From Leucobacter chinensis (GTDB lineage Bacteria > Actinomycetota > Actinomycetes > Actinomycetales > Microbacteriaceae): DNA of 64,000 nucleotides. This document shows positions 1,539 through 18,005 of this stretch, piece by piece. The translations under genes and the position numbers were made by a program. The DNA is taken from positions 62,001 to 126,000 of the forward strand of contig NZ_JAHQZR010000006.1 in assembly GCF_019049105.1 (NCBI RefSeq). The letters are read 5' to 3'. The notes beneath the pieces are model-generated. The model searched no databases, had not been told where the DNA came from, and was given only the letters and a program-made list of their open reading frames with translations. Within the stretch, counting starts at the first letter, position 1; each line of letters starts with the position of its first letter.

Positions 1539-1630
1539 GCTCCATTCTATTCCGTGACGCGCATGGGACTGAAGATGCCGCGCCGCACCTGAGAGGTGCC
1601 CACCCGCACCGCTCATGTTTGGAGACCCAC

Positions 1631-1936: not shown

Positions 1937-2040
1937 CACCCCGTATCCCCGGGCTTCGAGTCGGGTGTTTCGGGGTCGCACCTGACGGGTGACCCCGCAG
2001 CTATCTCGTTGCGGGCCGAAGCCTGTGAAGGAGCCCCACC

Positions 2041-2364
2041 ATGCTTGCCGTCCTCGACACCCTCACCGCCGCCGCCGCAGTCCTGCCCGCGAACATCAAC
2101 ATCACCCCGAACGACTCCGGCCTCCCCGGAATCGGTGCCCTTCGCACCGTCGTCGGTGCAGTGATGACGATCGGGCTGATCCTGTCCGTGCTCGCCCTCA
2201 TCGTCTCCGCGGTGGTGTGGGGCTTCGGGTCAAACTCCTCCAACCCCCACCTGGCTTCCAGGGGAAAGGTCGGGGTGCTGATCTCCTGCGGCGCGGCGAT
2301 CATCACCGGCGCATCAGTCACGCTCATCAACTTCTTCTGGAACGTCGGCCAGACCGTCTCCTAA
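2041..2364 (+). CDS. DUF6112 family small membrane protein (second copy)
   Basis: The protein has 107 aa from ATG 2041, with AAGGAG eight bases upstream. It has the same architecture as the 1631 gene: N-terminal hydrophobic stretch, an ITPNDSGLPGIGALRTVVGA segment, a TM helix, a short loop with SSNPHLASRGKVGV, and a second TM helix. The loops of the two copies are clearly related (xSNxNPxxAxxGKVGV), so this is a tandem duplication that has diverged. It sits directly upstream of the VirB6-like gene and is probably part of the same transfer operon. The role is inferred from position. Confidence 0.8.
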   Translation: MLAVLDTLTAAAAVLPANINITPNDSGLPGIGALRTVVGAVMTIGLILSVLALIVSAVVWGFGSNSSNPHLASRGKVGVLISCGAAIITGASVTLINFFWNVGQTVS

Positions 2365-2371
2365 CCCACGA

Positions 2372-2394
2372 CCTCTACCCGAAGAAGGGAGGGG
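2372..2394 (+). promoter_or_regulatory. Hairpin covering the ribosome-binding site of the VirB6-like gene
   Basis: CCTCT (2372-2376) and CCC (2378-2380) can pair with AGGGG (2390-2394) and GGG (2387-2389) around a GAAGAA loop, with one bulged A. The 3' arm is the Shine-Dalgarno stretch of the GTG start at 2401. It belongs to a set of similar leaders in this element. Pairing was judged by eye. Confidence 0.45.
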
Positions 2395-2400
2395 AACCCA

Positions 2401-3852
2401 GTGGCTGGAATCTGCGACGTCCCCATCATTAGCAACGTCTGCGACGCCGTCGGTGAAGGGGCCGCCACCCTCGTGGCAGCCCCTTTCGACTGGCTCGCAC
2501 AAGCCATCGGGCAGGCCGCGTCCTGGATCTTCCAGGGCGTGTGGGCACTGTTCGACTCCACCACCCTGGTCGATGTCACCGGGGCGGGCTACATCGGCGT
2601 GTACAACGTGATCTTCGGGATCGCGATCTTCATCATGCTGATCTTCTTCTGCCTCCAACTCATCACCGGCCTCATCCGCCGCGACCCCACCGCCCTGTCC
2701 CGCGCAGCTCTCGGGCTCGCAAAGAGCGTGTTGGGGTCGTTCCTGGTGATCACCCTCACCGCAACTCTCCTCGAGGTCGTCGACCAGCTGAGCATCGGCA
2801 TCATCCAAGCCACCGGCACAACGTTGGAGGAAATGGGCGGGAAGATCGGTGTTCTCGTTGCCGGGCTCACCGCGATCAACCTCACCGCACCAGGAGCCGG
2901 GGCAATCATCACGATCTTCCTCAGCTTCCTCGCGATCTGTGCCGCTGCGATCGTCTGGTTCTCACTCCTCATCCGGAAGGCTTTGATCCTCGTCGCGGTC
3001 GTCATGGCACCGATCGCTTTGTCGGGAGCGTCGTGGGATGCGACGAAGGGATGGTTCGGGAAGTGGGCATCGTTCGTGCTCGCGCTGATCTTCTCCAAGC
3101 TGGTGATCGTGGTGGTGTTTCTCGTCGCCATCAACCAGGTCAACGCCCCCATCGATCTGGACCTGTCCTCGATCGCGGATCCGATCGCGGGGATCGTGCT
3201 GATGTTCATCGCCGCGTTCGCCCCGTACATGGTGTACAAGTTCATCAGCTTCGTCGGCTTCGACATGTACCACGTCATGTCCGCCGAACAAGAATCCAAG
3301 CAAGCCATGAACCGGCCCATGCCGCTGCCAGGGAAACCCGACGGTGCAGGCCCGCAGAAGGTCCTCGACGGCGGTGACAACAAGGGTGGCGGAAACGGTG
3401 GAGGCGGCAATGCACCGCCGCCACCGAGCGGGAAGCCATCTGCGCCTGCGGGCGGTGGTGCAGGTTCCGCAGGTGCTGGTGCGGCGTCCGGCTCCGCGGG
3501 CGCTGCTGGATCCGGTGGCGCGGCAGTAGGATCCGGGGGCGGTGCTGCAGCCGCGGGCGGTGCCGGAGCGGGAGCTGCGGCAGGGCCGATCGGGATCGCC
3601 GCGGTTGCTGGGGCGAAGATCGCCAAGGGAGCCGCGGAAGCAGGACCGAAGCTCGGCGGCGCTATTGGTCGCACCGCGGACAACCACGCCGGGGCCGCAA
3701 GCGAAGCACAGACCCCACCACCACCGCCGGATCGCTCCACGCCGCCCGCCCAGCCGAGCGCACCGCCCTCGGAAGCTGTACCGAAGACGCCTCCGGCGAA
3801 ACCTGCGGGTGGGGACGCACCGCCACCGCCGAAGCCCGCACCGAAGTCCTGA
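2401..3852 (+). CDS. VirB6/TrbL-like conjugal transfer membrane protein (SCO6881 family)
   Basis: The protein has 483 aa from GTG 2401, with GGGAGGGG just upstream. The N-terminal half has at least six hydrophobic helices, including paired helices around residues 60-110 and 145-210 with the LLIRKALILVAVVMAPIAL pattern typical of TrbL/VirB6 and SCO6881-type proteins. After about residue 300 the sequence becomes a long Gly/Ala/Pro-rich disordered tail ending in a PPPPKP-type stretch. It would form part of the inner-membrane channel of the secretion apparatus. The position between the DUF6112 genes and the PrgI-like gene matches other actinobacterial elements. Confidence 0.85.
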   Translation: MAGICDVPIISNVCDAVGEGAATLVAAPFDWLAQAIGQAASWIFQGVWALFDSTTLVDVTGAGYIGVYNVIFGIAIFIMLIFFCLQLITGLIRRDPTALSRAALGLAKSVLGSFLVITLTATLLEVVDQLSIGIIQATGTTLEEMGGKIGVLVAGLTAINLTAPGAGAIITIFLSFLAICAAAIVWFSLLIRKALILVAVVMAPIALSGASWDATKGWFGKWASFVLALIFSKLVIVVVFLVAINQVNAPIDLDLSSIADPIAGIVLMFIAAFAPYMVYKFISFVGFDMYHVMSAEQESKQAMNRPMPLPGKPDGAGPQKVLDGGDNKGGGNGGGGNAPPPPSGKPSAPAGGGAGSAGAGAASGSAGAAGSGGAAVGSGGGAAAAGGAGAGAAAGPIGIAAVAGAKIAKGAAEAGPKLGGAIGRTADNHAGAASEAQTPPPPPDRSTPPAQPSAPPSEAVPKTPPAKPAGGDAPPPPKPAPKS

Positions 3853-3897
3853 ACCGACTTCGCACCTGAAAGGAGAGAGAAGACGCACATCCGTCAC

Positions 3898-3931
3898 GCG
3901 GGCGGTAACCCAGCACCGGGTTGCCGCCCGC
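3898..3931 (+). terminator. Strong hairpin between VirB6-like and PrgI-like genes
   Basis: The arms gcgggcggtaaccc (3898-3911) and gggttgccgcccgc (3918-3931) pair over 14 bases with one wobble, around a 6-base loop. TTCTTCG follows. It looks like a partial terminator or attenuator inside the transfer operon. Confidence 0.55.
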
Positions 3932-3942
3932 TTCTTCGTGTC

Positions 3943-3985
3943 CGTACCTGACCTGCACGTACCCGACGTCGTCTTCAGGAGGAGC
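3943..3985 (+). promoter_or_regulatory. CGTACCT leader element before the PrgI-like gene
   Basis: CGTACCTGA at 3943-3951 is followed by TCAGGAGGAG (3975-3984), the ribosome-binding site for ATG 3991. CCTGA and TCAGG can pair (5 bp). The same CGTACCT motif occurs before the genes at 7652, 10296 and 14594. This is the weakest pairing of the four. Confidence 0.4.
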
Positions 3986-3990
3986 CACAG

Positions 3991-5451
3991 ATGAGTACCG
4001 CATCCACGCAGAACGAGTTCGAACTGTCCCCGGTGAAGTTCTCCCGTCTCACCAAACGCGGAATCATCCTCGGCCTCTCCCTCCCACAAGTTATTGCGCT
4101 CTCGATCGCAGTCGCCGTCTTCATCGCCTCCCTGTACACCGGTGGACCCGCGGCGCTCTACACCGCACCCATCTGGGGCACCGCGATCGCCCTCACCTGG
4201 GTTCCCATCAGCGGCAGGAAACTCGTCGAATGGGTACCGATCACCCTGCACTGGCTCCTCCGCCAGGCACTGGGGCAGACCAGGTACCGGCGGCGCGTCG
4301 TCAAGCCCCGGCCCGCTGGGACGCTCGCGCTCCCGGGGGATGCGGCACCGCTTCGCCAGTACGAGGACCCCGAGACCGGGGCGGTCATGGTGCACGATCC
4401 GCACGCACAGACGTTGACTGCGCTGGTGGAGGTGACCCATCCGTCGTTCATCCTCCTCGACCCCGGAGAGCAGGAACGCCGCGTGCACGCCTGGGGACGC
4501 GTCCTGTCCACCGCCTGCCGCTCCACCCGCATCGCCCGCCTGCAGGTGCTCGAGCGCACCGTCCCCGACTCAGGTTCCGGGCTCGCACAGTGGTGGGCCG
4601 AACAGGGCAACGACGACGACTCCTGGGTCGCTCGCACCTACCGGGAGCTCATCGACCGGGCAGGCCCCGCTGGTGAACGGCACATCTCCACCATTTCGCT
4701 GTCCCTTGATATGCGGGCAGCGTCCCGCGCGATCCGCACCGCAGGCGGCAGCCTCAAAGGAGCAGCCGTCGTCCTGAGACAGGAGATGGACACCCTCACC
4801 ACCGCGCTGCGCACCGCAGATCTCAAACCCACCGCCTGGTACACCCCCGGTCAACTCGCCATCATGCTCCGCTCCGCCTACGACCCGGCAATCGCCGCGA
4901 CCCTGGAACGCTCAGGCGAGATCGGGCAAGACCTCGCCGCCGCAGGCCCCGTCGCGGTCGAAGAAACCTGGGACGGGCTTCGCTCTGACAGCGCCCATCA
5001 CGCAGTGCTGTGGATCAGCGAGTGGCCACGCTCCCTCGTCTACCCAGGCTTCCTCGCACCCGTCCTGCTGTCCTCCGGGATTAGGCGCGCATTCACCCTG
5101 CTGTGTGACCCGATCCGCTCCGACCAGGCAGCCCGCGACATCCGCAAGAAGAAAACCGAATACATCTCCGACGCGGCCCAGCGACAAAAAGTCGGACAAA
5201 TCGAAGACGCACAGCAGACAGCCGAATACCAAGACGTCCTCCAACAGGAAGCAGACCTCACCAGCGGCCACGGCGTCCTCCGCTACACCGGCCTCCTCGC
5301 CATCTCCGCCCCTACCGCTGACGAACTCGAGGCCGCGGTATCCGCGATCGAACAAGCAGCAATCCAAGCATCCTGCGAGACCAGGCGGCTCGTCGGCCAG
5401 CAAGCTCAAGCGTTCGTCGCGGCAGCGTTGCCCCTGTGCCGGGGACTATAA
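3991..5451 (+). CDS. PrgI/VirB4-N like conjugal transfer protein (SCO6880 family)
   Basis: The protein has 486 aa from ATG 3991, preceded by AGGAGGAG. Residues about 25-75 contain two TM helices in a PrgI/VirB3-like arrangement. The rest is a soluble domain matching the non-ATPase N-terminal half of VirB4 (DPGEQERRVHAWGRVLSTAC, then an SLSLDMRAASRAIR region, ending ALPLCRGL). There is no Walker A motif. The ATPase half is encoded separately at 7652. In related elements these two genes are adjacent, but here a MerR-MFS pair lies between them. The protein end looks complete. Confidence 0.85.
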   Translation: MSTASTQNEFELSPVKFSRLTKRGIILGLSLPQVIALSIAVAVFIASLYTGGPAALYTAPIWGTAIALTWVPISGRKLVEWVPITLHWLLRQALGQTRYRRRVVKPRPAGTLALPGDAAPLRQYEDPETGAVMVHDPHAQTLTALVEVTHPSFILLDPGEQERRVHAWGRVLSTACRSTRIARLQVLERTVPDSGSGLAQWWAEQGNDDDSWVARTYRELIDRAGPAGERHISTISLSLDMRAASRAIRTAGGSLKGAAVVLRQEMDTLTTALRTADLKPTAWYTPGQLAIMLRSAYDPAIAATLERSGEIGQDLAAAGPVAVEETWDGLRSDSAHHAVLWISEWPRSLVYPGFLAPVLLSSGIRRAFTLLCDPIRSDQAARDIRKKKTEYISDAAQRQKVGQIEDAQQTAEYQDVLQQEADLTSGHGVLRYTGLLAISAPTADELEAAVSAIEQAAIQASCETRRLVGQQAQAFVAAALPLCRGL

Positions 5452-5473
5452 GCGTATGGCTACCTGTGTCCCG

Positions 5474-6268
5474 TTACGGCGTTTGCTCGGGCAGTGAAAT
5501 TAGTTCACTCAGCCGTGTTTCAAGTTGGAGCAACACTGCGCGTTGTTGTCTATTCAGCACGTCGGCTGAGTGTTGAGCCAAAAGATCAGCGGCACCAGTT
5601 GCCTCGAACGGAGATTCATGCGCTGCATAGCTGGTGATCAATGGTGCAAACACTTTCAAGAAATGCTCCACCAGGTCAGAGATTTCGTCTTCGCTGGTGT
5701 TGTCGCCGAGTTCAGCAAACCGCCTGTTCATTGAGCTAACTGCAGGAGCGAACTCTTCGCTGCTGAGTTGCCGGTAGAGCTCAACAAGGTGGTTCATGCC
5801 TCCCTCGCCCGCGAAATGAGCAAGAAGAACGGCCTGGTCCCGATCGAAGCTTCCATACCAGGCGGGCAGGTCTTCGGTAGTGAGCGCGGTAAGGAATGGC
5901 GCTATTTCTGGGGGCGTGTCAGGAGCAGCTAGGTGAGAACGGAGTTGTTCGATGAGTGCTCGCTGTTGCTGCAAACGTTCGATCTCAGATACAAGTTCCT
6001 CGTCAAGTTGCGCTAACAGTTCTTGAGTGCCTGTTTGAGGGTCACTGATTGGGGTTTCTGGTTGGTCGAGAAGATCTGGCATCTGCTCGAGCGCAATGCC
6101 CAGCGAGCTGAGCCGTTTGATGCGCAGCACGCGGATAAGATCATGCACCGTGTAGTCACGGTACCCGTTGGCCCCACGTTCAGGTTCTTCAAGGACGCCG
6201 ACCTGGTGGTAGTGGCGGAGTGCTCGAACTGTCACCCCAGCGAGCCTCGCTAGTTCGCTGCTACGCAT
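5474..6268 (-). CDS. MerR family transcriptional regulator
   Basis: The protein has 264 aa from ATG 6268. Residues 1-70 are a MerR-type winged helix (MRSSELARLAGVTVRALRHY, then NGYRDYTVHDL). A helical linker (EIERLQQQRALIEQL) and a C-terminal helical domain of about 140 residues follow, possibly a TipAS-like ligand-binding domain. The start lies inside the end of the MFS gene (overlap 6261-6268), so the two genes form an operon transcribed against the transfer genes. It probably controls the exporter. Base composition looks less GC-rich than the transfer genes. Confidence 0.88.
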   Translation of the reverse strand: MRSSELARLAGVTVRALRHYHQVGVLEEPERGANGYRDYTVHDLIRVLRIKRLSSLGIALEQMPDLLDQPETPISDPQTGTQELLAQLDEELVSEIERLQQQRALIEQLRSHLAAPDTPPEIAPFLTALTTEDLPAWYGSFDRDQAVLLAHFAGEGGMNHLVELYRQLSSEEFAPAVSSMNRRFAELGDNTSEDEISDLVEHFLKVFAPLITSYAAHESPFEATGAADLLAQHSADVLNRQQRAVLLQLETRLSELISLPEQTP

Positions 6269-7520
6269 CTGTCACCTCCTCTGAAGTCTTGTTCGTGCCT
6301 GTTGCAGTATCTGCTTCTTGTGGTTCCAGGTTACGCAAAGACCGCGCGGTCAAGCCAAGAATGAGTGCGAGCAGCCACATACTTGACAGTGCGATCGAAG
6401 CGACCTGCACATTGAAATACTCGGTCAAGATTGCTGCGGCCATAATGCCCAGCGGGGGTGCTGCGGTCATGATGGCATTCTGGGTACCCATAATGCGGCC
6501 ACGCATTTCTTCCGGGATGCGTTCGATCATCAGCACCCCAATCAGGGCACCGAAGAGGCCACTTGCAGCACCGATGACGAATGCGCCAACGAAGATCACC
6601 CAAACAGTGATCAGCGAAGCGATGATCCCGAACCCAATAGCGGTGCCGATCAGCCCCACAACAAGCCAGATGCGTCGTGGTGTTTTCGTGCCTGCCACCG
6701 CGTAGATGCTGCCGCCGACGAGCATGCCTATTGCGAGAGCGGTGAGTACGAAGCCGAGCAATCCTGGCTGGTTGATTTCGGTGAAGTACACCGGCAGAAC
6801 CAGTCCTTGGAGAGCCCCCAACACGAGCACAGAAAATAGGCTCAGTGTGGTTGTGACGATCAGGAACGGGTTGGTGAATAGTGTGCGCCAGCCCGTACGA
6901 AGTTGGGTCCAGGAACTCGCAGTGGTCTCATCCGTTTCGCCCGGCAGAATCTTGCCAACTTCGCGCGGTATCAGCAAGGTGAGTAGAGCCGCGCCAAGCG
7001 AGGTGGCTGCGGTAATCCACAGCACTGTCGAGCCGTCAAAGAGCACCATCAGGGTGCCAGCTGCCGCAGGGCCAAGAAGGATCGCGACAGCTCCGAGGGC
7101 TTCGCGAATTCCCATGAGTCGTTCTGAAGTGATTTGGCCGTGTCGAAGAATTGCGGGAAGAAGCGCGTCGCGTGCGGTGAGCCCTGGCACGTCACCGACC
7201 GAGCCAAGGATGCCGAACAAAATGAACCAGCCAATGTTCAGTCCAGAAATCATGTCGATCAGAGGCAGTGCTGCAATCGCGGCAGCAGAGATGAGGTCAG
7301 TGACCACCGATGAGGTGCGCCGGTTGATCCGGTCGATGACCACACCCATGGTGAGCCCCGCAATAACAGCTGGAATCGCGGTAGCGGCTGCGACGGTACC
7401 GGCCCCCAGGGCGCTTCCAGTAATTTGCAGCACGATCAGCGGCAACGCGATACCCGCTATCGAGTTGCCCAGTAACGACAGTAGATATGAGGCGAGATAC
7501 GCGAAAGAGATTCTGTTCAT
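6261..7520 (-). CDS. MFS drug-efflux-type transporter
   Basis: The protein has 419 aa from ATG 7520 and about 12 hydrophobic segments. The first runs SFAYLASYLLSLLGNSIAGI. The cytoplasmic loop after TM2 has a GVVIDRINRRTS signature of the MFS. The pattern (MefA/Tap/MFS_3-like) fits proton-driven export of a toxic compound, with unknown substrate. It overlaps the MerR gene by 8 bases. The pair sits inside the conjugation operon on the opposite strand and is probably acquired cargo that could confer resistance. Confidence 0.85.
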   Translation of the reverse strand: MNRISFAYLASYLLSLLGNSIAGIALPLIVLQITGSALGAGTVAAATAIPAVIAGLTMGVVIDRINRRTSSVVTDLISAAAIAALPLIDMISGLNIGWFILFGILGSVGDVPGLTARDALLPAILRHGQITSERLMGIREALGAVAILLGPAAAGTLMVLFDGSTVLWITAATSLGAALLTLLIPREVGKILPGETDETTASSWTQLRTGWRTLFTNPFLIVTTTLSLFSVLVLGALQGLVLPVYFTEINQPGLLGFVLTALAIGMLVGGSIYAVAGTKTPRRIWLVVGLIGTAIGFGIIASLITVWVIFVGAFVIGAASGLFGALIGVLMIERIPEEMRGRIMGTQNAIMTAAPPLGIMAAAILTEYFNVQVASIALSSMWLLALILGLTARSLRNLEPQEADTATGTNKTSEEVTDA

Positions 7521-7560
7521 ACCTCAAGCAAAAACTATGACGTAGGGGCGGAGTCAAGCG
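7521..7560 (-). promoter_or_regulatory. Probable MerR-controlled promoter of the exporter operon
   Basis: On the minus strand CTTGACTCC (TTGACT at 7552-7557) is followed by CCCCTACGTCATAGTTT, ending a few bases before ATG 7520. This layout resembles MerR/TipA-type promoters with the operator between -35 and -10. I cannot set the -10 firmly. The leader would be very short. Confidence 0.4.
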
Positions 7561-7616
7561 TGGGAGGGAGCATGCCTAGCGTCCCGCGGAGCAAGTCGAC
7601 ACAGCAGCAAGGTTCG

Positions 7617-7645
7617 TACCTCTCAAACACCAGCTCTGAGAGGTA
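7617..7645 (+). promoter_or_regulatory. CGTACCT leader hairpin over the ribosome-binding site of the VirB4 ATPase
   Basis: TACCTCTCA (7617-7625) and TGAGAGGTA (7637-7645) form a perfect 9-bp inverted repeat with an 11-base loop. The 3' arm contains GAGAGG, the ribosome-binding site for GTG 7652. Pairing would block ribosome access. This is the clearest member of the leader family in this element. Confidence 0.6.
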
Positions 7646-7651
7646 GCCACT

Positions 7652-9169
7652 GTGTCCCAGAACCGTTCACCGAAGAAGCTCTACTCCACCGTCCTCGTCG
7701 AAGACGGCACCGGACGTAAACACCGCAAGGCGCGTGAGCGCGCGGCCCGCCAGGTCATCGCCCGCGAGCATGCCGAGCAGCGCGCCACAGAGAAAGCGAA
7801 GCTCACGGCGGAGCGCGCGGAAGCGCGTTCCACGAACTACCTCCCCAAAAGCGGCGAGCCGGGGCCTGCGGGATTGCGTTCGTATCGACGGTTCCGGGTG
7901 CCCGCGCATCAGGACACGTCCGCGGCACTGCAGGGCGCGTACCCGTTTCTCGCTGAGGGCGGGCTCGGGTCGCAGGGGGTGTTCGTTGGGCAGGACATAT
8001 ACTCCGGTGGGTCATTCGTGTACGACCCGTGGGTGCTGTATCAGCGGGGCATCATCACCGCCCCGAACCTCGTCCTCGCGGGCATCGTCGGCTCGGGGAA
8101 GTCATCGCTCGCGAAGAGCCTGTACACCAGGTCGATCCCGTTCGGCAGACGCGTCTACGTTCCCGGTGATCCGAAAGGCGAACACACCGCCGTCGCAGAA
8201 GCGGTCGGCGGGCAAGCGATCGTTCTCGGGCACGGGTTGAAGAACCGTCTGAACCCACTCGATGAGGGCTACCGTCCCGCTGGGCTCTCCGACAGTGAGT
8301 GGGCATCCACGGTCGCGTCGCGTCGTCGGGATCTGATCGGCGCGCTTGCTGAGACCGTGTTGGAGCGGTCGCTGTCTCCGTTGGAGCACACGGTGATTGA
8401 TATCGCGCTGCAGGCGGTGGTATCGTCTGCGTCGGTTCCGATCCTGCCGATGGTCGTCGACCGCATCCTCCGCCCTGACAGTGGTGATGATGAGCGGCTC
8501 GCTGAGGACGGTCGGATGGTCGGGCATGCGTTGCGCCGCCTGGTCTCCGGTGACCTCGCAGGCCTGTTCGATGGGCCGTCGACGGTGACGTTCGATCCGA
8601 CGTTGCCGATGATCACCCTCGACCTGTCGCGGGTGGTGGAGAACTCGACTCTGATCTCGGTGCTGATGACCTGTTCGTCGGCGTGGATGGAATCCGCTCT
8701 GCTGGATCCGAACGGTGGTCAGCGGTGGGTTGTGTACGACGAGGCATGGCGGCTGATGTCACACCCTGCCTTGTTGAAACGAATGGATGCACACTGGCGA
8801 CTTGCCCGCCATTACGGGATCGCGAACCTGCTCATCTTTCACAAGCTCACCGACCTCGACAATGTCGGCGATCAAGGCTCTGCCATGCGAGCACTCGCGG
8901 GCAGCCTGCTCGCGAACGCGGAATCACGGATCATCTATCGGCAAGAGTCCGACCAGATCGGAACCACTGGCAAGACTCTCGGGCTCACCGGTACCGAGCA
9001 GAAGCTCCTCCCGTCCCTGGGAACGGGCCAGGGCCTGTGGCGGATCAAGGAGTCCAGTTACGTCGTGCAGCATCAGCTCCATCCCGAGGAGCTGAGGGCC
9101 TTCGACACCACCCAGCGAATGACACAAGCGCCACGCACGCAGGTAGCGGATGCGGTTGGCGAGGCGTGA
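7652..9169 (+). CDS. VirB4/TraC-type conjugation ATPase
   Basis: The protein has 505 aa from GTG 7652. Walker A is GIVGSGKSSLAKS at about residue 143 and a Walker B-like RWVVYDEAWRLM is at about residue 358. The region after Walker A (YVPGDPKGEHTAVAEAVGG) is typical of actinobacterial TraC/VirB4. The N-terminus is highly charged. It would energise assembly of the transfer channel together with the SCO6880-type protein encoded at 3991, which supplies the missing N-terminal VirB4 half. Its TGA overlaps the GTG start of the next gene. Confidence 0.9.
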   Translation: MSQNRSPKKLYSTVLVEDGTGRKHRKARERAARQVIAREHAEQRATEKAKLTAERAEARSTNYLPKSGEPGPAGLRSYRRFRVPAHQDTSAALQGAYPFLAEGGLGSQGVFVGQDIYSGGSFVYDPWVLYQRGIITAPNLVLAGIVGSGKSSLAKSLYTRSIPFGRRVYVPGDPKGEHTAVAEAVGGQAIVLGHGLKNRLNPLDEGYRPAGLSDSEWASTVASRRRDLIGALAETVLERSLSPLEHTVIDIALQAVVSSASVPILPMVVDRILRPDSGDDERLAEDGRMVGHALRRLVSGDLAGLFDGPSTVTFDPTLPMITLDLSRVVENSTLISVLMTCSSAWMESALLDPNGGQRWVVYDEAWRLMSHPALLKRMDAHWRLARHYGIANLLIFHKLTDLDNVGDQGSAMRALAGSLLANAESRIIYRQESDQIGTTGKTLGLTGTEQKLLPSLGTGQGLWRIKESSYVVQHQLHPEELRAFDTTQRMTQAPRTQVADAVGEA

Positions 9170-9687
9170 TCGTGGACGAGGAGTTCGAGTCGCAGCAAAG
9201 CTCCCCAGCAGTCGTGGGTGCACCGGGCAGGCTCACCGAAGAGGAGCTGTCCCGGAACATGATGGCTCTGCACGACGGAATGAGTGGCCTCGGTACCCGG
9301 TACGACAAGCATGTCTTTCTCGCGTTCGAAGACCCGGTGACGTTCGGTGCTGGCCACTACGTCTTCTACCCGCTCGAGGGACACGCGTCGAGGTTCGCGG
9401 TCACCGAGCTGTACACCGGCACCGACTGGCGAGACGACGAAAGGGCTCCGACCTCCTGGTCGTGGGAATCAGAAGTCCACGTGCCGAGTACGGATGGTTC
9501 GTACCCGTGGATGACCATCGGTGAGGGCGAGATCGCGTCCGATGACTACGAGCAACTGCTGCGCGTGACCGAAAACTGGGCGAAGAACACATACCAGTTA
9601 GCCGAGCGCGCAGAAGCCCTAGCGATGGAAGCGGTCGATCGCGGAGACGTGGGCCGGTCGGGGCCAGATCGCACCTTCCTGGCATGA
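9166..9687 (+). CDS. Hypothetical protein in the transfer operon
   Basis: The protein has 173 aa from GTG 9166, which overlaps the stop of the ATPase gene (GTGA), so translation is coupled. The sequence is soluble and acidic, with RLTEEELSRNMMALHDGMSG near the start and a YVFYPLEGH segment in the middle. I recognise no domain or catalytic motif. Position suggests an accessory transfer protein conserved in this kind of element. The next gene overlaps its stop by ATGA. Confidence 0.75.
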   Translation: MIVDEEFESQQSSPAVVGAPGRLTEEELSRNMMALHDGMSGLGTRYDKHVFLAFEDPVTFGAGHYVFYPLEGHASRFAVTELYTGTDWRDDERAPTSWSWESEVHVPSTDGSYPWMTIGEGEIASDDYEQLLRVTENWAKNTYQLAERAEALAMEAVDRGDVGRSGPDRTFLA

Positions 9688-10229
9688 ACCTTCGACGACG
9701 CCTCCGCGCACGCAAACCCGACACCCCGACCTTCAGCGAGAGCCTTCCGCGGGTCGTGCCTGCGGTGTTGCCGCAGATCCTTCTCGAAGCGGTTTCTGAC
9801 ACGAGCCTGGTCGTGACGGTCAACGGCGACAAACTTGCCGCCACCCCGATCACCCGTAGTGAGATCGCTGCAACAGTGACCGAGCTCGTCGCCCGGTTTG
9901 CTACGCGGACGAGGGTGGAGGTGCGGGAACTCGATGGCAGTATCCGAGCTGACATCCTCACGCCACCCGCTCCGCAGCCTCGATCTCCGTTCGCTCCGCC
10001 CGAAACAGCCGGAGCACCAGTGTCGGTTCCGAGCTTGTTGGAGTTCACAGCAGAAGGGTTCGTCCCCGGTGAGGATGTCGCCGTAGCGATCGTACTTCGT
10101 CACTCATCAGCAGATCACACCGGGAATGCCCGTGCCCTGATCGATCAAGGCGAAAAGTTCACTGTGAGGGACGAGATTGTCCTGTTGGGGCGCATCTCGG
10201 GCACGACGTCGGTCCAAACCATCGACTAA
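9684..10229 (+). CDS. Hypothetical protein in the transfer operon
   Basis: The protein has 181 aa from ATG 9684 (ATGA overlap with the previous gene). It has a basic N-terminus (MNLRRRLRARKP), then a VVTVNGDKLAATPITRSEIA segment and a RTRVEVRELDGSIRADIL strand-rich part, then a Pro-rich linker and a C-terminal domain. I recognise no named family. It lies just before the coupling-protein gene, suggesting an accessory role in substrate presentation or regulation. That is inference only. Confidence 0.72.
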   Translation: MNLRRRLRARKPDTPTFSESLPRVVPAVLPQILLEAVSDTSLVVTVNGDKLAATPITRSEIAATVTELVARFATRTRVEVRELDGSIRADILTPPAPQPRSPFAPPETAGAPVSVPSLLEFTAEGFVPGEDVAVAIVLRHSSADHTGNARALIDQGEKFTVRDEIVLLGRISGTTSVQTID

Positions 10230-10238
10230 CTCTGGCCC

Positions 10239-10287
10239 GTACCTGTTCTCTTGACCCCGCTTCTTCCGCCTCTGGGGTCGGGAAGGT
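10239..10287 (+). promoter_or_regulatory. CGTACCT leader hairpin before the coupling-protein gene
   Basis: GACCCC (10253-10258) pairs with GGGGTC (10274-10279). Outside it, ACCT (10241-10244) can pair with AGGT (10284-10287), which includes part of the GGAAGG ribosome-binding site of GTG 10296. The 5' part carries the shared CGTACCT motif. Confidence 0.5.
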
Positions 10288-10295
10288 GCTGTGTC

Positions 10296-12062
10296 GTGTC
10301 TGGACCTGTACAGGCGAAACCCGCCAACGATCTCTTCATCAACCTCGCACTCGGTGCGCTCGTCACTGCCGCCGCGTTCACCGGGCTCCTGCGTATCGCA
10401 GGCTCCGTAACTGCGTTCCTGACCGGCCTGCCGGAGCCAACCTGTGGGTTCACCTCCGGGCTCGCGGTGCTCGCGCACCCGACAGATCCGGGGGCGGCGC
10501 TCGGCGCTGAGGGGCTCAACCCCGTTCTCTATTGGATGGTCGTGTTCGTGTTCCTTGGCCTGTTGGGTGCGGCAGGGTTCTTCGTCGCGCGGGCGATCTA
10601 CCGGTCTCGGTCGAAGACGGATCCGCACCGTCTCGCGGGAACGGCAACTGCGGGTGAAGTCGCACAGGTCGCCTCCGCGAAAGCTCTCGTGAAGAAATCC
10701 GCCACACTGCGCCCGTCACTCACCGAGAAGCCCAGGCCAGAGGAGGTCGGGTATCTGCTCGGGACGGCGAAAGGCGGGCAGGTGTGGGCAACGGTCGAAG
10801 ACTCAATCCTTCTCATCGGCCCGCCCCGTTCCGGAAAGGGCCTACATGTGGTGATCAACGCGATCCTCGACGCACCAGGAGCCGTCATCACCACCAGCAC
10901 TCGTCCCGACAACCTCACCGCCACGATGAAGGCCAGGGAACGGAAAGGGCCAGTGGCAGTGTTCGACCCGCAGCAACTCGCCCCTGGCCTGCCCTCAGGG
11001 ATGCGGTGGTCTCCCGTGCGGGGCTGTCAGGACCCGCTGACGGCGATGATCCGCGCGAAAGGCCTCGCCACCGCGACCGGATTCGGCGGGGTCCAAGACG
11101 CGGGCTTCTGGGAAGGAAAAACCACCGCCGCAATCCAAGGCCTCCTCCACGCGGCAGCCCTCGACGGACGCGATGCGAAGACCCTCTATCAATGGGCGCT
11201 CAACCCCACCCTCGCAGCAGACGCAGTCCGGGTCCTCTCGTCGCATGCGGGGGCAGCGGAAGGGTGGGCAGACTCGCTGGATGCGATGGTGCAGGCCGAT
11301 CCTCGCACCCGCGACTCCATCTGGCAGGGAGTTTCCCTCGCGTTCTCCGCCCTCGCAGACCCCCGCGTTCTCGATGCCGTCAGCCCCGCACCGGGTGAGG
11401 AATTCGATCCCGAAAGTTTCCTCCTCGGCAATGGGACGCTCTATCTCCTTGCTACCGGCGCTGGGGCGGGCGCATCGTCTGCGCTGGTGGCAGCATTCAT
11501 CGAAGACCTCGTCGAGACCGCGAGGAAGATCGCCGCACGCTCACCAGGCGCACGCATGGACCCACCGTTGCTTCTGGCTTTGGATGAGATCGGAAACCTC
11601 GCCCCGCTCCCGTCACTGCCGACGTTGATGGCGGAAGGTGGCGGCACCGGCATCACGCCCCTTCCCGTGCTGCAGTCGCTCGCGCAGGCGCGGGAGAAGT
11701 GGGGCGAGAACCAAGCGAACGCGATCTGGGACGCCTCGATCGTGAAGATCATCCTCGGCGGAGCATCCAACAGTCGCGATCTCCAGGACCTCGCCACCCT
11801 CATCGGCGACCGCGACGAAACCACGGACTCCATCACCACCGACGCGTACGGTGCGCATTCCAGGCAGCGTTCAATCCGTCGAGTCCCGATCCTTCCACCC
11901 GACGTACTGCGGACCCTCCCGTTCGGGACCGGTGTCGTGATGCTCCGCACCGCACGCCCCATCATCACCAACCTCCGCCCATGGCCAGCACGCCCCGACG
12001 GGAAACAACTACGAGCCGATCGCAAGAGCGTCGAACAGGCATTGCAGGGCGGATCACGGTGA
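10296..12062 (+). CDS. TraG/TraD/VirD4-type conjugative coupling protein
   Basis: I took GTG 10296 as the start (GGAAGG nine bases upstream), giving 588 aa. An upstream in-frame TTG at 10251 is less likely. Two TM helices lie at about residues 12-35 and 70-95. Walker A is GPPRSGKGLH at about residue 173 and Walker B is LLLALDEIGNLAPLP at about residue 427. This is the classic layout of a T4SS coupling ATPase that delivers the relaxase-DNA complex to the channel. The gene converges on the cargo operon to its right. Confidence 0.92.
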   Translation: MSGPVQAKPANDLFINLALGALVTAAAFTGLLRIAGSVTAFLTGLPEPTCGFTSGLAVLAHPTDPGAALGAEGLNPVLYWMVVFVFLGLLGAAGFFVARAIYRSRSKTDPHRLAGTATAGEVAQVASAKALVKKSATLRPSLTEKPRPEEVGYLLGTAKGGQVWATVEDSILLIGPPRSGKGLHVVINAILDAPGAVITTSTRPDNLTATMKARERKGPVAVFDPQQLAPGLPSGMRWSPVRGCQDPLTAMIRAKGLATATGFGGVQDAGFWEGKTTAAIQGLLHAAALDGRDAKTLYQWALNPTLAADAVRVLSSHAGAAEGWADSLDAMVQADPRTRDSIWQGVSLAFSALADPRVLDAVSPAPGEEFDPESFLLGNGTLYLLATGAGAGASSALVAAFIEDLVETARKIAARSPGARMDPPLLLALDEIGNLAPLPSLPTLMAEGGGTGITPLPVLQSLAQAREKWGENQANAIWDASIVKIILGGASNSRDLQDLATLIGDRDETTDSITTDAYGAHSRQRSIRRVPILPPDVLRTLPFGTGVVMLRTARPIITNLRPWPARPDGKQLRADRKSVEQALQGGSR

Positions 12063-12084
12063 CGGGAAGCCCTCTTTCTCAGGG

Positions 12085-12708
12085 TTACTGCAGTAGCGCT
12101 GAGTTCAGTTCGACGAGGGTGCGGTTGTGGAAATAATCGTCTTCTCGCAGCACGGTGATGCCTCCTGGCTCCGCGCGCAACCGCATGTGCTGGAGAGCGT
12201 CGATGGGCAGGCGCAAGAACGCGGCTGCGACAAAGGTGAGTGCTCCACCGTGAGTGGAGATGACCTGGTGTTCGCACGGCTTGTCGAGGATCTCGTCCAT
12301 GGCTTCGTAGATGCGGGTTGCGAACCCGTGCATGGTTTCTGCTCCTGCAATCCCCTCATTGTGGCAGAGCCGTTCACCGGTACGAGGTGGCGTGCGGAAG
12401 CGTACATTGAGCCATGACTGCGGTTTCCCTTCCGCGATTCCGTAAGATTTCTCCCGCAGCCGCGCATCGACCACCGCTGGGATGCCCAGATAGTTGGTGA
12501 TGGCCTGGGCGGTCTGCGCGGTGCGCCGCAGGTCTGATGAATACAACTCGACAGTTTCCCCGGGTGGGATTCGTGCTGCGAGTGCGGCACCGATCCGGTC
12601 AGCCGCTTGTAGCCCTTGGTCGGTGAGCTCGGAGTGGTACCAGCCTCCGACTAAACCGTTGACGTGGTGTGTGGCTTCGGGGTGGGTGACCACATACAGC
12701 GTCCTCAT
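12085..12708 (-). CDS. Histidine-phosphatase-like protein with altered RHG motif
   Basis: The protein has 207 aa from ATG 12708, last gene of a four-gene operon (ATGA overlap with the gene upstream). The fold features of the phosphoglycerate mutase-like superfamily are present: ELTDQGLQAADRIGAALA, YSSDLRRTAQTAQAI, a REKSYGIAEGK loop and a late VISTHGGALTF containing the second catalytic His. The N-terminal motif reads THPEATHH where RHG is expected, so the usual first arginine is a threonine while the histidine is kept. Substrate is unknown. Confidence 0.85.
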   Translation of the reverse strand: MRTLYVVTHPEATHHVNGLVGGWYHSELTDQGLQAADRIGAALAARIPPGETVELYSSDLRRTAQTAQAITNYLGIPAVVDARLREKSYGIAEGKPQSWLNVRFRTPPRTGERLCHNEGIAGAETMHGFATRIYEAMDEILDKPCEHQVISTHGGALTFVAAAFLRLPIDALQHMRLRAEPGGITVLREDDYFHNRTLVELNSALLQ

Positions 12709-13691
12709 GCGTCTGTTTCCTGACGTAGATCTCCGGATGGCAGGGAACTGAGATGTTCGTGCGTGAGTAGCCACCCGTGCTCGGTTCGCATGAAGACGTT
12801 CGTGGCACGCCCGGCACCGGAGCGCATCTCGCCTTCTATGGCGCCTTTCCAGTGGTAGGTATAGGTCGCCACAGCTGCTTGATCGGCGTCTGTAACCCAT
12901 TGGATTTTTTCGGCCCAATAGTGCTCATCGGGGATCATCGCCCAGGTGCGTTCAAAGTAGTCGCGCACCTGTGTGAGGCCGATGCAGGTTGCGTCACCGA
13001 AGAAATAGACGGCATCAGAGGAGAGAAGTTTCTCGACCTGGTCAAAGTCGTGCGTATTCGTAGCCGCCAGATACGCACTCAGAGCTTCGGCAGCCGTTGT
13101 TTCTGGTGAACACCCCTTGCCTGGCGCATGAGGGAAGTTCGCCCTCATCTTCCACACCGGAGGTCCTCCGCCCACGCCGGTATGGGTGATGGTTTGAAAT
13201 CCGTGCCGCTCATACAGGCGGACGTTGCGAGGATCAGAGGTGTCCAGCTCCACTGATGCACCGCCTCGCCGGGCCGCTTCAGCCAGCGCGAACGACAACA
13301 GGGCAGACGCGATCCCGCTGCCTTGGGAGTTGGGAAGCACGCCAAGAGTTTCGAGCCGCCATGCTCCTGTCGGTGGATCAGTAGGTAAGTCAGCGTGGTC
13401 GAGTCTGTCGATCCGGTCGCCGTGCAAGCGCACGATCTCGTCGATCATCCCTGGGTCGGGTTCGGGAGCATCGGGCGGCAGGAGCGCGATCACGCCCTCG
13501 CCGTTGCCCACCACGGCGACGATCCCATGCATGTGCGCATACTCGAGATACAGCAACTGTAGATCGTGTAGCCGCTGATGATAGTTCTCTTCAGGAATCA
13601 CGTGGCGCGTCCACGGATAATGTTCAAACGCAGCAGCAAGACTGATTGCGCTCGTGGGGAGGTCGTCGGCGCTAGCTAAGCGGGGTGTCAT
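12705..13691 (-). CDS. GNAT acetyltransferase fused to a SnoaL/NTF2-like domain
   Basis: The protein has 328 aa from ATG 13691, with AGGAG seven bases upstream. Residues about 1-200 form a GNAT domain (GVLPNSQGSGIASALLSFAL is the acetyl-CoA motif; VRLYERHGFQ follows). Residues about 215-328 resemble a SnoaL/DUF4440 NTF2-like domain (ALSAYLAATNTHDFDQVEKL, then VFMRTEHGWLLTHEHLS). Such pairs occur in small-molecule modification or resistance proteins. The gene overlaps its neighbours on both sides, so it belongs to the operon starting at 14477. Confidence 0.82.
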   Translation of the reverse strand: MTPRLASADDLPTSAISLAAAFEHYPWTRHVIPEENYHQRLHDLQLLYLEYAHMHGIVAVVGNGEGVIALLPPDAPEPDPGMIDEIVRLHGDRIDRLDHADLPTDPPTGAWRLETLGVLPNSQGSGIASALLSFALAEAARRGGASVELDTSDPRNVRLYERHGFQTITHTGVGGGPPVWKMRANFPHAPGKGCSPETTAAEALSAYLAATNTHDFDQVEKLLSSDAVYFFGDATCIGLTQVRDYFERTWAMIPDEHYWAEKIQWVTDADQAAVATYTYHWKGAIEGEMRSGAGRATNVFMRTEHGWLLTHEHLSSLPSGDLRQETDA

Positions 13692-14055
13692 TGGGAATCT
13701 CCTGGTTGTCCAGAGGCGCGGCTTGTCCGCCGTTGCCTTTATTGCCTGAAGAGCCGGGGATACCTGAGCCGACAATGGCCTGCAGCGTGGCAAGGTGCCG
13801 TTCGAACGCGGTACGCCCGGTCGTGGTGATGCCAACCCAGGTGCGCGTGCGTCTGCCCACGGTTTCTTTACGCACGGTCACCAGGTCAGCATCTGCGAGC
13901 ACGGTGATGGCTTGCGAGAGTGTGGAGTCACTCACCTCCAGGAGGTTTGCGAGGAATCTGAAATCCACATCTTCCAGGTTCCGCAGCGCGGCCAGTAACG
14001 AGAACCGCACGGGGGAGTGGATGAGGGTGTCGAGGTCTTTGCGGGGATGACTCAT
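13672..14055 (-). CDS. Winged-helix regulator (HTH_34-like, MarR-related)
   Basis: The protein has 127 aa from ATG 14055, which overlaps the stop of the membrane-protein gene (ATGA). The core LIHSPVRFSLLAALRNLEDV, then LANLLEVSDSTLSQAITVLA (recognition helix) and a basic wing (VRKETVGRRTRTWV), matches PF13601-type winged helices. A Gly/Asn-rich tail ends the protein. It probably represses its own operon: a palindromic site lies at the promoter (14484-14502). Confidence 0.85.
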   Translation of the reverse strand: MSHPRKDLDTLIHSPVRFSLLAALRNLEDVDFRFLANLLEVSDSTLSQAITVLADADLVTVRKETVGRRTRTWVGITTTGRTAFERHLATLQAIVGSGIPGSSGNKGNGGQAAPLDNQEIPNDTPLS

Positions 14056-14477
14056 CGGCGAGAGCTCGCAAACAGGCATGCCAAGATCGGGGTGATCGAC
14101 ACGACTCCGGCGAGCACCCACCACCACGGCGAAGACAGACCAAACAATTGCAGCGCGGGGTCAAGCATGAGGGTGTAAAGCGCGAACCAAGTCGCCACCG
14201 CGATGCCCATGTTCCGCAGGCCGTGGCGCGGGATCGACTCGCGATAGCGGAACGCGATCATCCAGATACAGAGCGTGACGAGCAGGAACGGTGCGAACGC
14301 CTTCCAATAGTTCACCTTGACAATGTCAAGCGAAAGCGTAAAGGCCAGCGCATACGCGGCCTGCATGACTACGAAGACACGGAACCATCGCGTGGCTCTC
14401 CGCGCATCCTGCGCAGCCTTCTCACCCACGGCGACCAGACGAGTTGCATCTTCAACAGAGAACTTGTTTTCACTCAT
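14052..14477 (-). CDS. Small membrane protein, first gene of cargo operon
   Basis: The protein has 141 aa from ATG 14477. A hydrophilic N-terminus (about 30 residues) is followed by four hydrophobic helices (VFVVMQAAYALAFTL; FAPFLLVTLCIWMIAF; MGIAVATWFALYTLML; WWWVLAGVVSITPILACLFA). I recognise no named family. Pairing of such a membrane protein with an HTH_34-type regulator is seen in other actinobacteria and suggests a membrane stress or sensing role. The function is not known. Confidence 0.75.
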   Translation of the reverse strand: MSENKFSVEDATRLVAVGEKAAQDARRATRWFRVFVVMQAAYALAFTLSLDIVKVNYWKAFAPFLLVTLCIWMIAFRYRESIPRHGLRNMGIAVATWFALYTLMLDPALQLFGLSSPWWWVLAGVVSITPILACLFASSRR

Positions 14478-14483
14478 GCAACT

Positions 14484-14502
14484 ACTTTATTAATCCTAAA
14501 GT
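14484..14502 (-). promoter_or_regulatory. Palindromic operator-like site at the cargo operon promoter
   Basis: ACTTTA-TTAATCC-TAAAGT is a perfect 6-bp inverted repeat with a 7-base spacer, starting 7 bases upstream of ATG 14477. It is AT-rich in a GC-rich setting and overlaps the probable -10 (TAGGAT on the minus strand). The neighbouring winged-helix protein is the obvious candidate binder. Confidence 0.5.
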
Positions 14503-14532
14503 CGTGGTGTCCAGTCGACACGATCACGGCCC

Positions 14533-14587
14533 GTACCTATCCGGTAGCCCCCTCATGTCCTGTGCAGGGGTGAACCGATAGGAGTAC
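14533..14587 (+). promoter_or_regulatory. CGTACCT leader hairpin over the ssb ribosome-binding site
   Basis: GTACCTATCCGGT (14533-14545) can pair with ACCGATAGGAGTAC (14574-14587) with small bulges, with inner CCCCT/AGGGG pairing. The 3' arm contains TAGGAG, the ribosome-binding site for ATG 14594. The motif is shared with the leaders at 3943, 7616 and 10239. Confidence 0.55.
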
Positions 14588-14593
14588 CCGCTG

Positions 14594-15085
14594 ATGAGCA
14601 TCCGCACCAAACAGTCCCTCGCAGGGTTCGTCGCCACCGATCCGGAGCTGACGTTCACCAGCAGCGGCGACGCGCGCGTCTACATGCGCGTCGGGCAGCC
14701 TCAGGCCCGGTTCGAACAGGACGGCACGTTCACCCAGCTCGACCCGGAGTTCACCGACCTGGTGATGTTCCGCAAGTCCGCTGAGCTCGCACACGAGCAG
14801 TTCCGCAAGGGCGACAACTTCATCGCCGAAGGCGAAACCCGCACCTACACCGGCGACGACGGCATGGAGCGGGAGCAGTTCGTCGCTTCCCGGATCGGGC
14901 ACGACAACAACATCACCCGCTACACCGTCGACCGCGGAGCACCCGAACGCGAGGCACCGCAGCACGAAGCCCCTGGCCGGGAACAGATGCAGCAGGTGCT
15001 CGCGCAGCGTGAAGCAGACCTGGACCCTGAACCACCCGCCGCATCCGCCACGGGCTCGACGGAGCGCGAGGCCGTTGCCCGCTAA
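14594..15085 (+). CDS. ssb: Single-stranded DNA-binding protein of the element
   Basis: The protein has 163 aa from ATG 14594. The N-terminal OB-fold region (LAGFVATDPELTFTSSGDAR, VYMRVGQPQ, FRKSAELAHEQFRKGDNFIA, GETRTYTGDDG) matches SSB. The C-terminal part is a short polar tail ending in TEREAVAR and lacks the acidic DDDIPF-type tip that chromosomal SSBs use to recruit partners. It would protect transferred single strands in donor or recipient. Confidence 0.85.
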   Translation: MSIRTKQSLAGFVATDPELTFTSSGDARVYMRVGQPQARFEQDGTFTQLDPEFTDLVMFRKSAELAHEQFRKGDNFIAEGETRTYTGDDGMEREQFVASRIGHDNNITRYTVDRGAPEREAPQHEAPGREQMQQVLAQREADLDPEPPAASATGSTEREAVAR

Positions 15086-15104
15086 CCCGTGGGGTTTCCA
15101 CGCC

Positions 15105-15148
15105 GGGTGCGGCGACCATCCTCACACCTCCGCCAGGTCGCCGCACCC
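15105..15148 (+). terminator. Hairpin downstream of ssb
   Basis: gggtgcggcgacc (15105-15117) and ggtcgccgcaccc (15136-15148) form a perfect 13-bp inverted repeat with an 18-base loop, 20 bases after the ssb stop. There is no U-run. A second hairpin follows at 15166-15188. Confidence 0.55.
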
Positions 15149-15165
15149 ACCTCTCTTCGCTCTCT

Positions 15166-15193
15166 CGCGCCGCAGCAGCGACGGCGCGTCTTT
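15166..15193 (+). terminator. Second hairpin with short T-rich tail before the DUF4913 gene
   Basis: cgcgccg (15166-15172) pairs with cggcgcg (15182-15188), followed by TCTTTC. With the 15105 hairpin it forms a double terminator or attenuator just before the ribosome-binding site AGGAG of ATG 15212. Confidence 0.45.
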
Positions 15194-15211
15194 CACACTC
15201 AGGAGTAGACG

Positions 15212-15862
15212 ATGAACAGTGGACAACCGACCCCGGATGCGCCGGGGCCAGACTTCGACGGGACGGATCTCGGCGACCTCCCACCCGGCGTGGAGGAAAA
15301 GATGCGCGAGCTCGCGAAACAGGCCTACGTCAGCGACCTCGCGGCAGCCCTCGGGCAAGTGCCACGCCCGATCAACTGGCGCACCCTCCCACCCAGCGAC
15401 CTCGAACACGAACTCCTCGAACTCAACGAATGGGTGGACTGGCTCCGCCACACCTACGGTCTCCCCGCACAGGTGATCCCTCCGATGTGGCACCGCCACC
15501 CGGAACTCTTGTGGGAGCTGTCAGCGCTCAGGCAACACTGGCTGTTCTGCTTCGACCCACAAGCCAAAGGCAACCAGGCCCTCGCCTGGCACCACGACTT
15601 CGCTATCGCCCGCGAACGCCTCCGCGACTGGGTCACGATTTCCGGGACACGCCTGGACCGTGACCGCCCCACCCGCATCACCGCCTGGCCGGGAGGCGAA
15701 TCAGAAGGGTGGGAGGAGCCTGACACTGCTGAGCGTGCCGTGACTGCTCGGATTGAGGACTTCCTTGCGTTCGTAGACGAGCAGGTCGCCTCCAGAACTG
15801 CGGAGCAGGACGCAGTGATCCGTCAGGTGATCGCCGATGAGCAGCGTGGCCGTGATGGGTGA
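15212..15862 (+). CDS. DUF4913-like protein of conjugative elements
   Basis: The protein has 216 aa from ATG 15212, with AGGAG nearby. It has an acidic N-terminus (PDFDGTDLGDLPPGVEEKM), a LEHELLELNEWVDWLRHTYG helix, and an IPPMWHRHPELLWELSALR motif followed by a WHHDFAIARERLRDW helix. The W/H-rich core is characteristic of DUF4913 proteins, found near ssb and recombinase genes in actinobacterial plasmids and elements. Biochemical role unknown. Confidence 0.8.
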   Translation: MNSGQPTPDAPGPDFDGTDLGDLPPGVEEKMRELAKQAYVSDLAAALGQVPRPINWRTLPPSDLEHELLELNEWVDWLRHTYGLPAQVIPPMWHRHPELLWELSALRQHWLFCFDPQAKGNQALAWHHDFAIARERLRDWVTISGTRLDRDRPTRITAWPGGESEGWEEPDTAERAVTARIEDFLAFVDEQVASRTAEQDAVIRQVIADEQRGRDG

Positions 15863-16082
15863 GCAGCCCGCGAAGCGGAAACCACCAGCTTCGGAACGGT
15901 CCTTCGGAATCCAGGCGGTGCATCGCGACCGCCCGAACATGACTGCACTGACGGAGCTATTCGTGCGGTTCACCCTGGCAGAAGCACACGCCCGCCGGGA
16001 TACGCAGCCCATTCCTATGCGGGTACGTCCGGAGGTGCTGAAGCAGGATGCTGACTGGGAACGCACTGGCGAAGGAAGGTAA
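15837..16082 (+). CDS. Small hypothetical protein between the DUF4913 and recombinase genes
   Basis: The protein has 81 aa from ATG 15837 (AGGTGA about seven bases upstream); ATG 15855 is an alternative. It overlaps the end of the DUF4913 gene by 26 bases. It is basic and polar with a MTALTELFVRFTLAEAHARR helix in the middle. It has no recognised domain. Overlap and codon pattern support a real gene translationally linked to its upstream neighbour. Confidence 0.6.
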   Translation: MSSVAVMGEQPAKRKPPASERSFGIQAVHRDRPNMTALTELFVRFTLAEAHARRDTQPIPMRVRPEVLKQDADWERTGEGR

Positions 16083-16109
16083 CATCGCAACCCGCCCAGA
16101 ATGCCTGGT

Positions 16110-16140
16110 GGCGGGGAGAAAGGAATCAGGGATCCCCGCC
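16110..16140 (+). promoter_or_regulatory. Hairpin immediately before the recombinase start, ribosome-binding site in the loop
   Basis: GGCGGGGA (16110-16117) and TCCCCGCC (16133-16140) form a perfect 8-bp inverted repeat. The 15-base loop carries AAAGGAATCAGGGA, the only Shine-Dalgarno-like sequence. The 3' arm ends at the base before ATG 16141. This geometry could limit or time recombinase synthesis. Confidence 0.5.
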
Positions 16141-17913: not shown

Positions 17914-17991
17914 CGCACCGCAGTGGCCGGTGCGTAATGCTCGGCACGGCTGCTGCTTGCGAGCTGAGCGCCGCGGGTTCCCGAATCGAAG

Positions 17992-17997
17992 TAGACT
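17992..17997 (+). promoter_or_regulatory. -10 box (TAGACT) of a leaderless argS transcript
   Basis: TAGACT followed by eight bases and ATG 18006, with no Shine-Dalgarno between. This spacing implies transcription begins at or next to the start codon. Confidence 0.6.
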
Positions 17998-18005
17998 ATT
18001 GAGCT

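Follow-up and report, generated by a model that had tools for sequence, protein, structure and literature searches.

A leader motif shared by the genes of an actinobacterial conjugative element and its probable role as an element-specific promoter

The window analyzed here is a stretch of 64,000 nucleotides from Leucobacter chinensis (G000:C20:62001-126000; host genome 2.94 Mb). A conjugative element that starts upstream of it, at about L084:9487, reaches into the window, and the downstream portion of this element makes up the first 18 kb. Many genes of this element are preceded by a short motif, GYACCT, called the box below. The box is probably the core of an element-specific promoter, GG-N10-GYACCTGnCnGGY|R, at which RNA synthesis would start 13 nt after the first G of the box, and its reader is probably an uncharacterised protein encoded by the element itself. 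A fuller proposal is put forward tentatively, as a possibility somewhat short of even: an unrecognised and highly diverged sigma-like factor, carried by an entire class of conjugative elements in actinobacteria, would have its own promoter (GG-N10-GYACCTG, no -35 element) and a multi-gene regulon translatable only from that promoter, via leaderless starts or an anti-Shine-Dalgarno (anti-SD) arm.

The box and its distance to gene starts

The original prediction, made from the letters of the window, had four genes sharing the motif CGTACCT. This was borne out, with copies on the + strand at positions 3943, 7615, 10238 and 14532 that precede the gene starts 3991, 7652, 10296 and 14594; the remaining 46 kb of the window contain two copies on the + strand and three on the - strand. 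GYACCT is the wider form of the motif, with extra copies in the window at 1585 (gene 1631), 1978 (gene 2041) and 9671 (gene 9684) and at least five further copies in the same element upstream of the window (L084). Of the boxed genes found in the element, the first encodes a DNA methylase (PF01555; L084:9487-10662).

The comparison set comprised 80 loci from other actinobacterial genomes, chosen by relatives of the VirB4-like protein. The closest related locus is from the genus Leucobacter, and related elements are present in Microbacteriaceae, Micrococcaceae, Nocardioides, Propionibacteriales and others. Across 83 loci, GYACCT followed by a Shine-Dalgarno sequence (SD) and then an open reading frame was counted 381 times on the gene strand versus 99 times on the reverse strand, and permuted hexamers gave a mean of 76 with the highest at 163. 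One motif is common to separate genes of the element and is retained ahead of the same genes in homologous elements: it is present in the SSB leaders of 39 of the 41 non-redundant loci (reverse-strand control, 1) and before the second DUF6112 copy in 25 of 29 loci (reverse strand, 0). Clustering of the downstream proteins gave at least 10 boxed gene families, all on the same strand. Large surface-protein-like genes of up to about 1000 amino acids are also boxed in L029, L035, L048 and relatives. In the gene maps examined, the box was absent from genes overlapping their predecessor. It was not found before genes 2401 and 16141 either, and these two, originally listed among the six genes with an inverted repeat, do not belong to the boxed set.

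The distance between the box and the gene start is fixed in a group of genes. An ATG stands exactly 13 nt after the box in 32 non-redundant genes (35 in all), with 4 at +12, 1 at +14 and none at +15; on the reverse strand, 6 were found at +13. None of the 32 genes has an SD, and 23 of them have GG at -13..-11. They belong mainly to the membrane-protein family TMP, the family of gene 9684 and DUF6112. In the SD-led leaders, positions 12 and 13 are a pyrimidine and a purine in 84% of 188 cases versus about 23% nearby, and this step is seen separately in the SSB, DUF6112, TMP, MPTF, SCO6880 and VirB4 families. A GG is also concentrated about 12 nt upstream of the box (density 0.49 at -12 versus 0.08 background), with one base of slack.

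A start fixed 13 nt after the box explains the ATG at +13, the pyrimidine/purine step and the upstream GG together, and the SD-less ATG together with the fixed step would be expected of a promoter whose start site does not vary. The box would then lie at -13 to -8, where a -10 element sits, with A at -11, a pyrimidine at -1 and a purine at +1. With a copy in front of most genes that are translated independently, the transfer and replication genes could be switched on together by a single factor. The same arrangement recurs in a held-out set of loci fetched by the candidate protein only, with the copy of the window's genome excluded. Scored at a threshold of at least 13 with a matrix built from the earlier leaders, these loci gave 52 gene-strand hits versus 2 on the reverse strand, and at 12 of the hits an ATG at +13 opens a frame of at least 70 codons. 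Other readings of the motif were tried and rejected: a dyad operator has GG and CC symmetric and the remainder asymmetric, and a leader peptide starting near the box meets some GTG codons, which are not general.

All gene-leading boxes described here for the window lie on the + strand. Box GCACCTGAGAGGT (1585..1598, predicted start 1598, matrix score 11.0) leads gene 1631, the first DUF6112 copy, and GCACCT is kept in leaders homologous to this gene. Box GCACCTGACGGGT (1978..1991, predicted start 1991) leads gene 2041, the second DUF6112 copy; it has the best matrix score in the window (20.4) and is followed by an SD-hiding hairpin (covariance model 18.7 bits, z -2.5). Box GTACCTGACCTGC (3944..3957, predicted start 3957, matrix score 12.7) leads gene 3991 of the SCO6880 family. 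Just past the end of gene 2401 a second box, GCACCTGAAAGGA, is found at 3862-3875; it leads no gene within 100 nt and is perhaps a relic. Box GTACCTCTCAAAC (7616..7629, predicted start 7629, matrix score 11.2) leads gene 7652, encoding the VirB4-like ATPase, and box GTACCTATCCGGT (14533..14546, predicted start 14546, matrix score 12.4) leads gene 14594, encoding the SSB-like protein. Box GCACCTTCCTGGC (9671..9684) has the ATG of gene 9684 exactly at +13, so that this gene is presumably leaderless; the same arrangement is present in the homologues L004, L005, L009, L010 and L011. The TraG/VirD4 gene 10296 is led by box GTACCTGTTCTCT, which together with a long stem hiding GGAAGG spans 10239..10295. 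This box has no purine at +13 and is the weakest promoter candidate among the window boxes.

Leader hairpins over the Shine-Dalgarno sequence

Six leader hairpins had been predicted in the window. All six fold as described, and four of them are more stable than dinucleotide shuffles of the same leaders, while those of 3991 (z +0.3) and 2401 (z -1.1) are no better than shuffles, although the leader of 3991 scores 22.5 bits in the covariance model. The perfect 9-bp repeat at 7617-7645 (TACCTCTCA paired with TGAGAGGTA, + strand), whose 3' arm is the SD of the VirB4-like gene, has a minimum free energy of -12.1 versus -5.4 in the shuffles (z -2.9). Similar values were obtained for 10296 (z -2.9) and 14594 (z -2.0); in the latter, the SD-hiding stem CCTATCcGGT/ACCGATAGG (14536..14585, + strand) encloses an inner GC hairpin and is backed by both the fold and compensatory changes. 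At 16141, the inverted repeat 16110-16140 with the SD in its loop exists as predicted (z -2.3). It lacks the box and is unrelated to it, and a repeat resembling it is visible only in the two closest relatives, L007 and L010.

Covariation in the SD-hiding stems was assessed in an ungapped, box-anchored alignment of 53 leaders by counting cells that are changed on both sides yet still paired. There were 76 such compensatory cells versus 34.5 ± 5.6 after shuffling (0 of 500 shuffles), and slid partners gave 20-43. In most leaders, GY.CCU pairs with AGGNRC and a variable stem follows. Swapping the 3' arms between loci weakens the pairing: swaps did as well in 0/5000 trials for SSB, VirB4 and the first DUF6112 copy and in 1/5000 for TraG (z -4.5). 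In having a conserved SD-containing stem with compensatory changes, the leaders resemble SD-sequestering leader RNAs of the translational control type. The consensus fold of the MAFFT alignment A1 showed no structure because the arms shift register, which box anchoring solved. In a genome search with the covariance model, the best match outside the elements (L086, 25.7 bits) lies inside an open reading frame called there, and this model is too weak to stand alone.

These stems can be combined with the promoter reading if the promoter sequence has a second function in RNA. In a transcript reading through from upstream, the box and the next bases would pair with the SD and bury it, whereas transcripts started at the box would lose the anti-SD arm; the +13 spacing suggests that the full stem is absent from the main mRNA. 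For genes with the ATG at +13, transcripts started at the box would be leaderless mRNAs, and read-through copies would lack an SD altogether. Either design would make translation depend on initiation at the box by the element's own factor, and the hairpin would add a second level of control by silencing read-through RNA.

The candidate regulator and competing explanations

That the boxed genes answer to a common regulator at the level of the element, as the original prediction held, is likely. The likeliest candidate for this factor is an uncharacterised protein of the element, about 280 amino acids long (L084:15169-16008; family alignment A3) and encoded upstream of a ParB-like gene. Its relatives occur in about 45 of the loci examined and in 28 of 297 genomes of the order. 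The leader of the candidate gene itself carries the most conserved box copy of all, even between proteins 30% identical, and in 20 of 30 independently found loci box and hairpin stand directly before this gene. The genome of the window has two copies of the candidate gene and two elements with boxes; the second element (G000:C17; L085, L087) carries boxes and a candidate copy of its own. A third type IV secretion system (T4SS) region of the same genome (G000:C11, L129) showed no match to the candidate gene; the matrix gave six weak hits there, and no ATG stood at +13. The AlphaFold model of the N-terminal domain of the candidate is helical and of good confidence (predicted local distance difference test 84.7). 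When this model was searched against PDB structures, sigma factors ranked first and made up about half of 35 weak matches, including sigma-32, RpoS region 2, SigE, SigI, WhiG and T4 gp55; among viral models, the best match was a phage sigma-like factor. The domain, which in the model resembles sigma region 2, is a lead, not proof.

Several observations weigh against a promoter read by this protein. The resemblance to sigma factors does not reach significance (best E 2.7 in PDB and 0.79 among viral models; all E >0.7), and no match to the candidate was obtained with Pfam, NCBIfam, PHROG or PDB sequence profiles; the Sigma70_r2 profile did not match it in a search that gave seven other matches in the host genome. 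The leader alignments show no -35 element, only the GG about 10 bp upstream of the box, and a GG at this place fits no sigma-70 promoter known to us. We infer the start at +13 from the spacing of sequence features alone. A matrix score of at least 10 is reached at 9 places in 45 kb of host chromosome, so that the matrix alone is not specific. The TraG leaders keep box and hairpin, with the pyrimidine/purine step in 5/12 and the GG in 0/12. The arm swap is weak for the second DUF6112 copy (80/5000) and not significant for 3991 (292/5000, n=7). Finally, the mean unpaired probability of the SD is 0.28 in read-through RNA, 0.34 with the 5' arm shuffled and 0.38 in transcripts starting at +13 (0.28 versus 0.38, p 2e-9), which is a modest change in a leader set filtered for pairing energy.

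Weak sigma similarity of the candidate, together with the several sigma factors encoded by the host genome, leaves some room for a promoter read by the host, in which a host extracytoplasmic function (ECF) sigma factor or an activator would recognise the box and the candidate would have another role. This is unlikely. In hosts from several actinobacterial families the motif goes with the element, and it was not found in distant, related T4SS plasmids of Streptomyces, Arthrobacter and Glutamicibacter that lack the candidate gene.

The original prediction had favored a switch acting on RNA: an RNA-binding protein of the element or an antisense RNA would bind the box in trans and open or close the SD hairpin. 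The SD-hiding stems with their compensatory changes agree with it, as do the TraG leaders, in which box and hairpin occur without the start-site signature. The box is also conserved beyond the need of pairing, with the A at position 3 mostly mismatched, in a set that was itself selected on the box. This explanation is nevertheless improbable, since it does not account for the ATG at +13 in genes with no SD and no room for a hairpin, nor for the fixed pyrimidine/purine step in the SD-led leaders. Nor was any Rfam family matched in positions 1-20000 of the window (E up to 5) or in seven related loci (gathering threshold), both searches returning nothing beyond tRNAs and hits at chance level. The motif that the genes share does exist, in a wider form than first noted, and it is probably not primarily an RNA switch.

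Cleavage of RNA could mimic a promoter more closely. If a nuclease read GG-N10-GYACCT on a long polycistronic transcript and cleaved it 13 nt further downstream, it would remove the anti-SD arm and leave leaderless or SD-exposed mRNAs, with the same ends at +13 and the same hairpin logic. Its chances seem slight, as no candidate nuclease was seen and a pyrimidine and a purine at -1/+1 are typical of initiation. Long sense transcripts are less likely at boxes 1585, 7616 and 14533, which lie just past minus-strand cargo, and a terminator-like hairpin of 14 pairs with a T-rich tail (3898..3931, + strand, between gene 2401 and the box) stands before box 3944. Comparable terminator-like hairpins precede the same gene in L004 and L014. 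A terminator before every box was considered and rejected, a strong inverted repeat being found in only 6/187.

Translational coupling, in which the stems hide the SD and a gene is translated only right after the upstream cistron, is about as improbable as cleavage: an upstream stop does lie within 30 nt before the box in most TraG leaders and in some VirB4 ones, which is close to how far a terminating ribosome reaches, but stops are 20-140 nt away in many others, the same three window boxes follow minus-strand cargo, and the ATG at +13, the upstream GG and the shared sequence of the box are left unexplained.

The element and its relation to known systems

The element in the window encodes DUF6112 proteins, SCO6881-family and SCO6880-family proteins, the VirB4-like ATPase, TraG/VirD4, the SSB-like protein and a recombinase. 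It ends at a tRNA gene (17815-17887) adjoining an argS-like gene. The tRNA gene, on the minus strand, shares sequence with the 3' end of the recombinase reading frame (16048-17913), which suggests that the integration site of the element rebuilds the end of the recombinase gene. Three cargo blocks on the minus strand (504-1557, 5474-7520 and 12085-14477) include a MerR/MFS pair and phosphatase, GNAT and MarR-like genes; the MFS transporter and other cargo are carried by the element within the window. Each block ends just upstream of a box-led core gene, at boxes 1585, 7616 and 14533. In the homologous elements L008 and L009, the box before VirB4 is kept and the cargo there is absent. A promoter at each box would tolerate such minus-strand insertions upstream.

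Sigma-54 promoters belong to the -24/-12 class and carry TTGCA. The GG-N10-GY spacing and a start about 12 nt downstream resemble this class, and a sigma-54 promoter was considered for the box. It was rejected: the spacing fits and the sequence does not, as the second position of the box is C (77%) or T (22%), TTGCA is missing and the conserved part is ACCT. Phage T4 provides a closer parallel for the proposed factor. Its late sigma gp55 is a diverged sigma-family factor that docks at the site of sigma domain 2, while gp33 takes the domain 4 site (PMC2988020), and gp55 is among the structural matches of the N-terminal domain of the candidate. Unlike the phage protein, the candidate has a second helical domain and no detectable sequence similarity, and the box that it is supposed to read is rich in GC and preceded, 10 bp upstream, by a GG. 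The mobile element carrying SigN likewise has an alternative sigma factor of its own; SigN is a recognised sigma factor, whereas the candidate has no recognised sigma domain and the motif no -35 element.

SetCD is a transcriptional activator. In the SXT/R391 integrative and conjugative element it is the element-encoded master regulator of transfer genes (PMC4344509), a role similar to the one proposed here. Unlike in the SetCD regulon, the motif here would fix the start site and double as the anti-SD arm. The proposed leaderless genes recall Mycobacterium tuberculosis, in which 26% of the genes with a primary start site are leaderless (PMC3898074), being transcribed from the start codon onward and having no SD. 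Leaderless starts there were mapped and are a general feature of the transcriptome, whereas those proposed here are deduced and belong to one promoter class of a mobile element. A protection from read-through like the one proposed here exists in the transposase genes of IS10 and IS50, where transcripts from outside fold and hide the ribosome-binding site and transcripts from the own promoter are translated. That protection covers the single gene of an insertion sequence; the present arrangement would cover many genes and include leaderless variants.

Literature searches for the motif or for DUF6112 found nothing relevant, and the start signal for RNA synthesis looks previously undescribed. To our knowledge, it is poorly known how integrated elements stay silent and are then switched on. 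If the promoter reading is true, the switch, its target sites and the start site to the base would all be named for these elements, and the whole transfer programme could be turned on at once while otherwise remaining silent. The promoter sequence would then have a double duty, as a recognition site in DNA and as a silencer of read-through transcripts in RNA.

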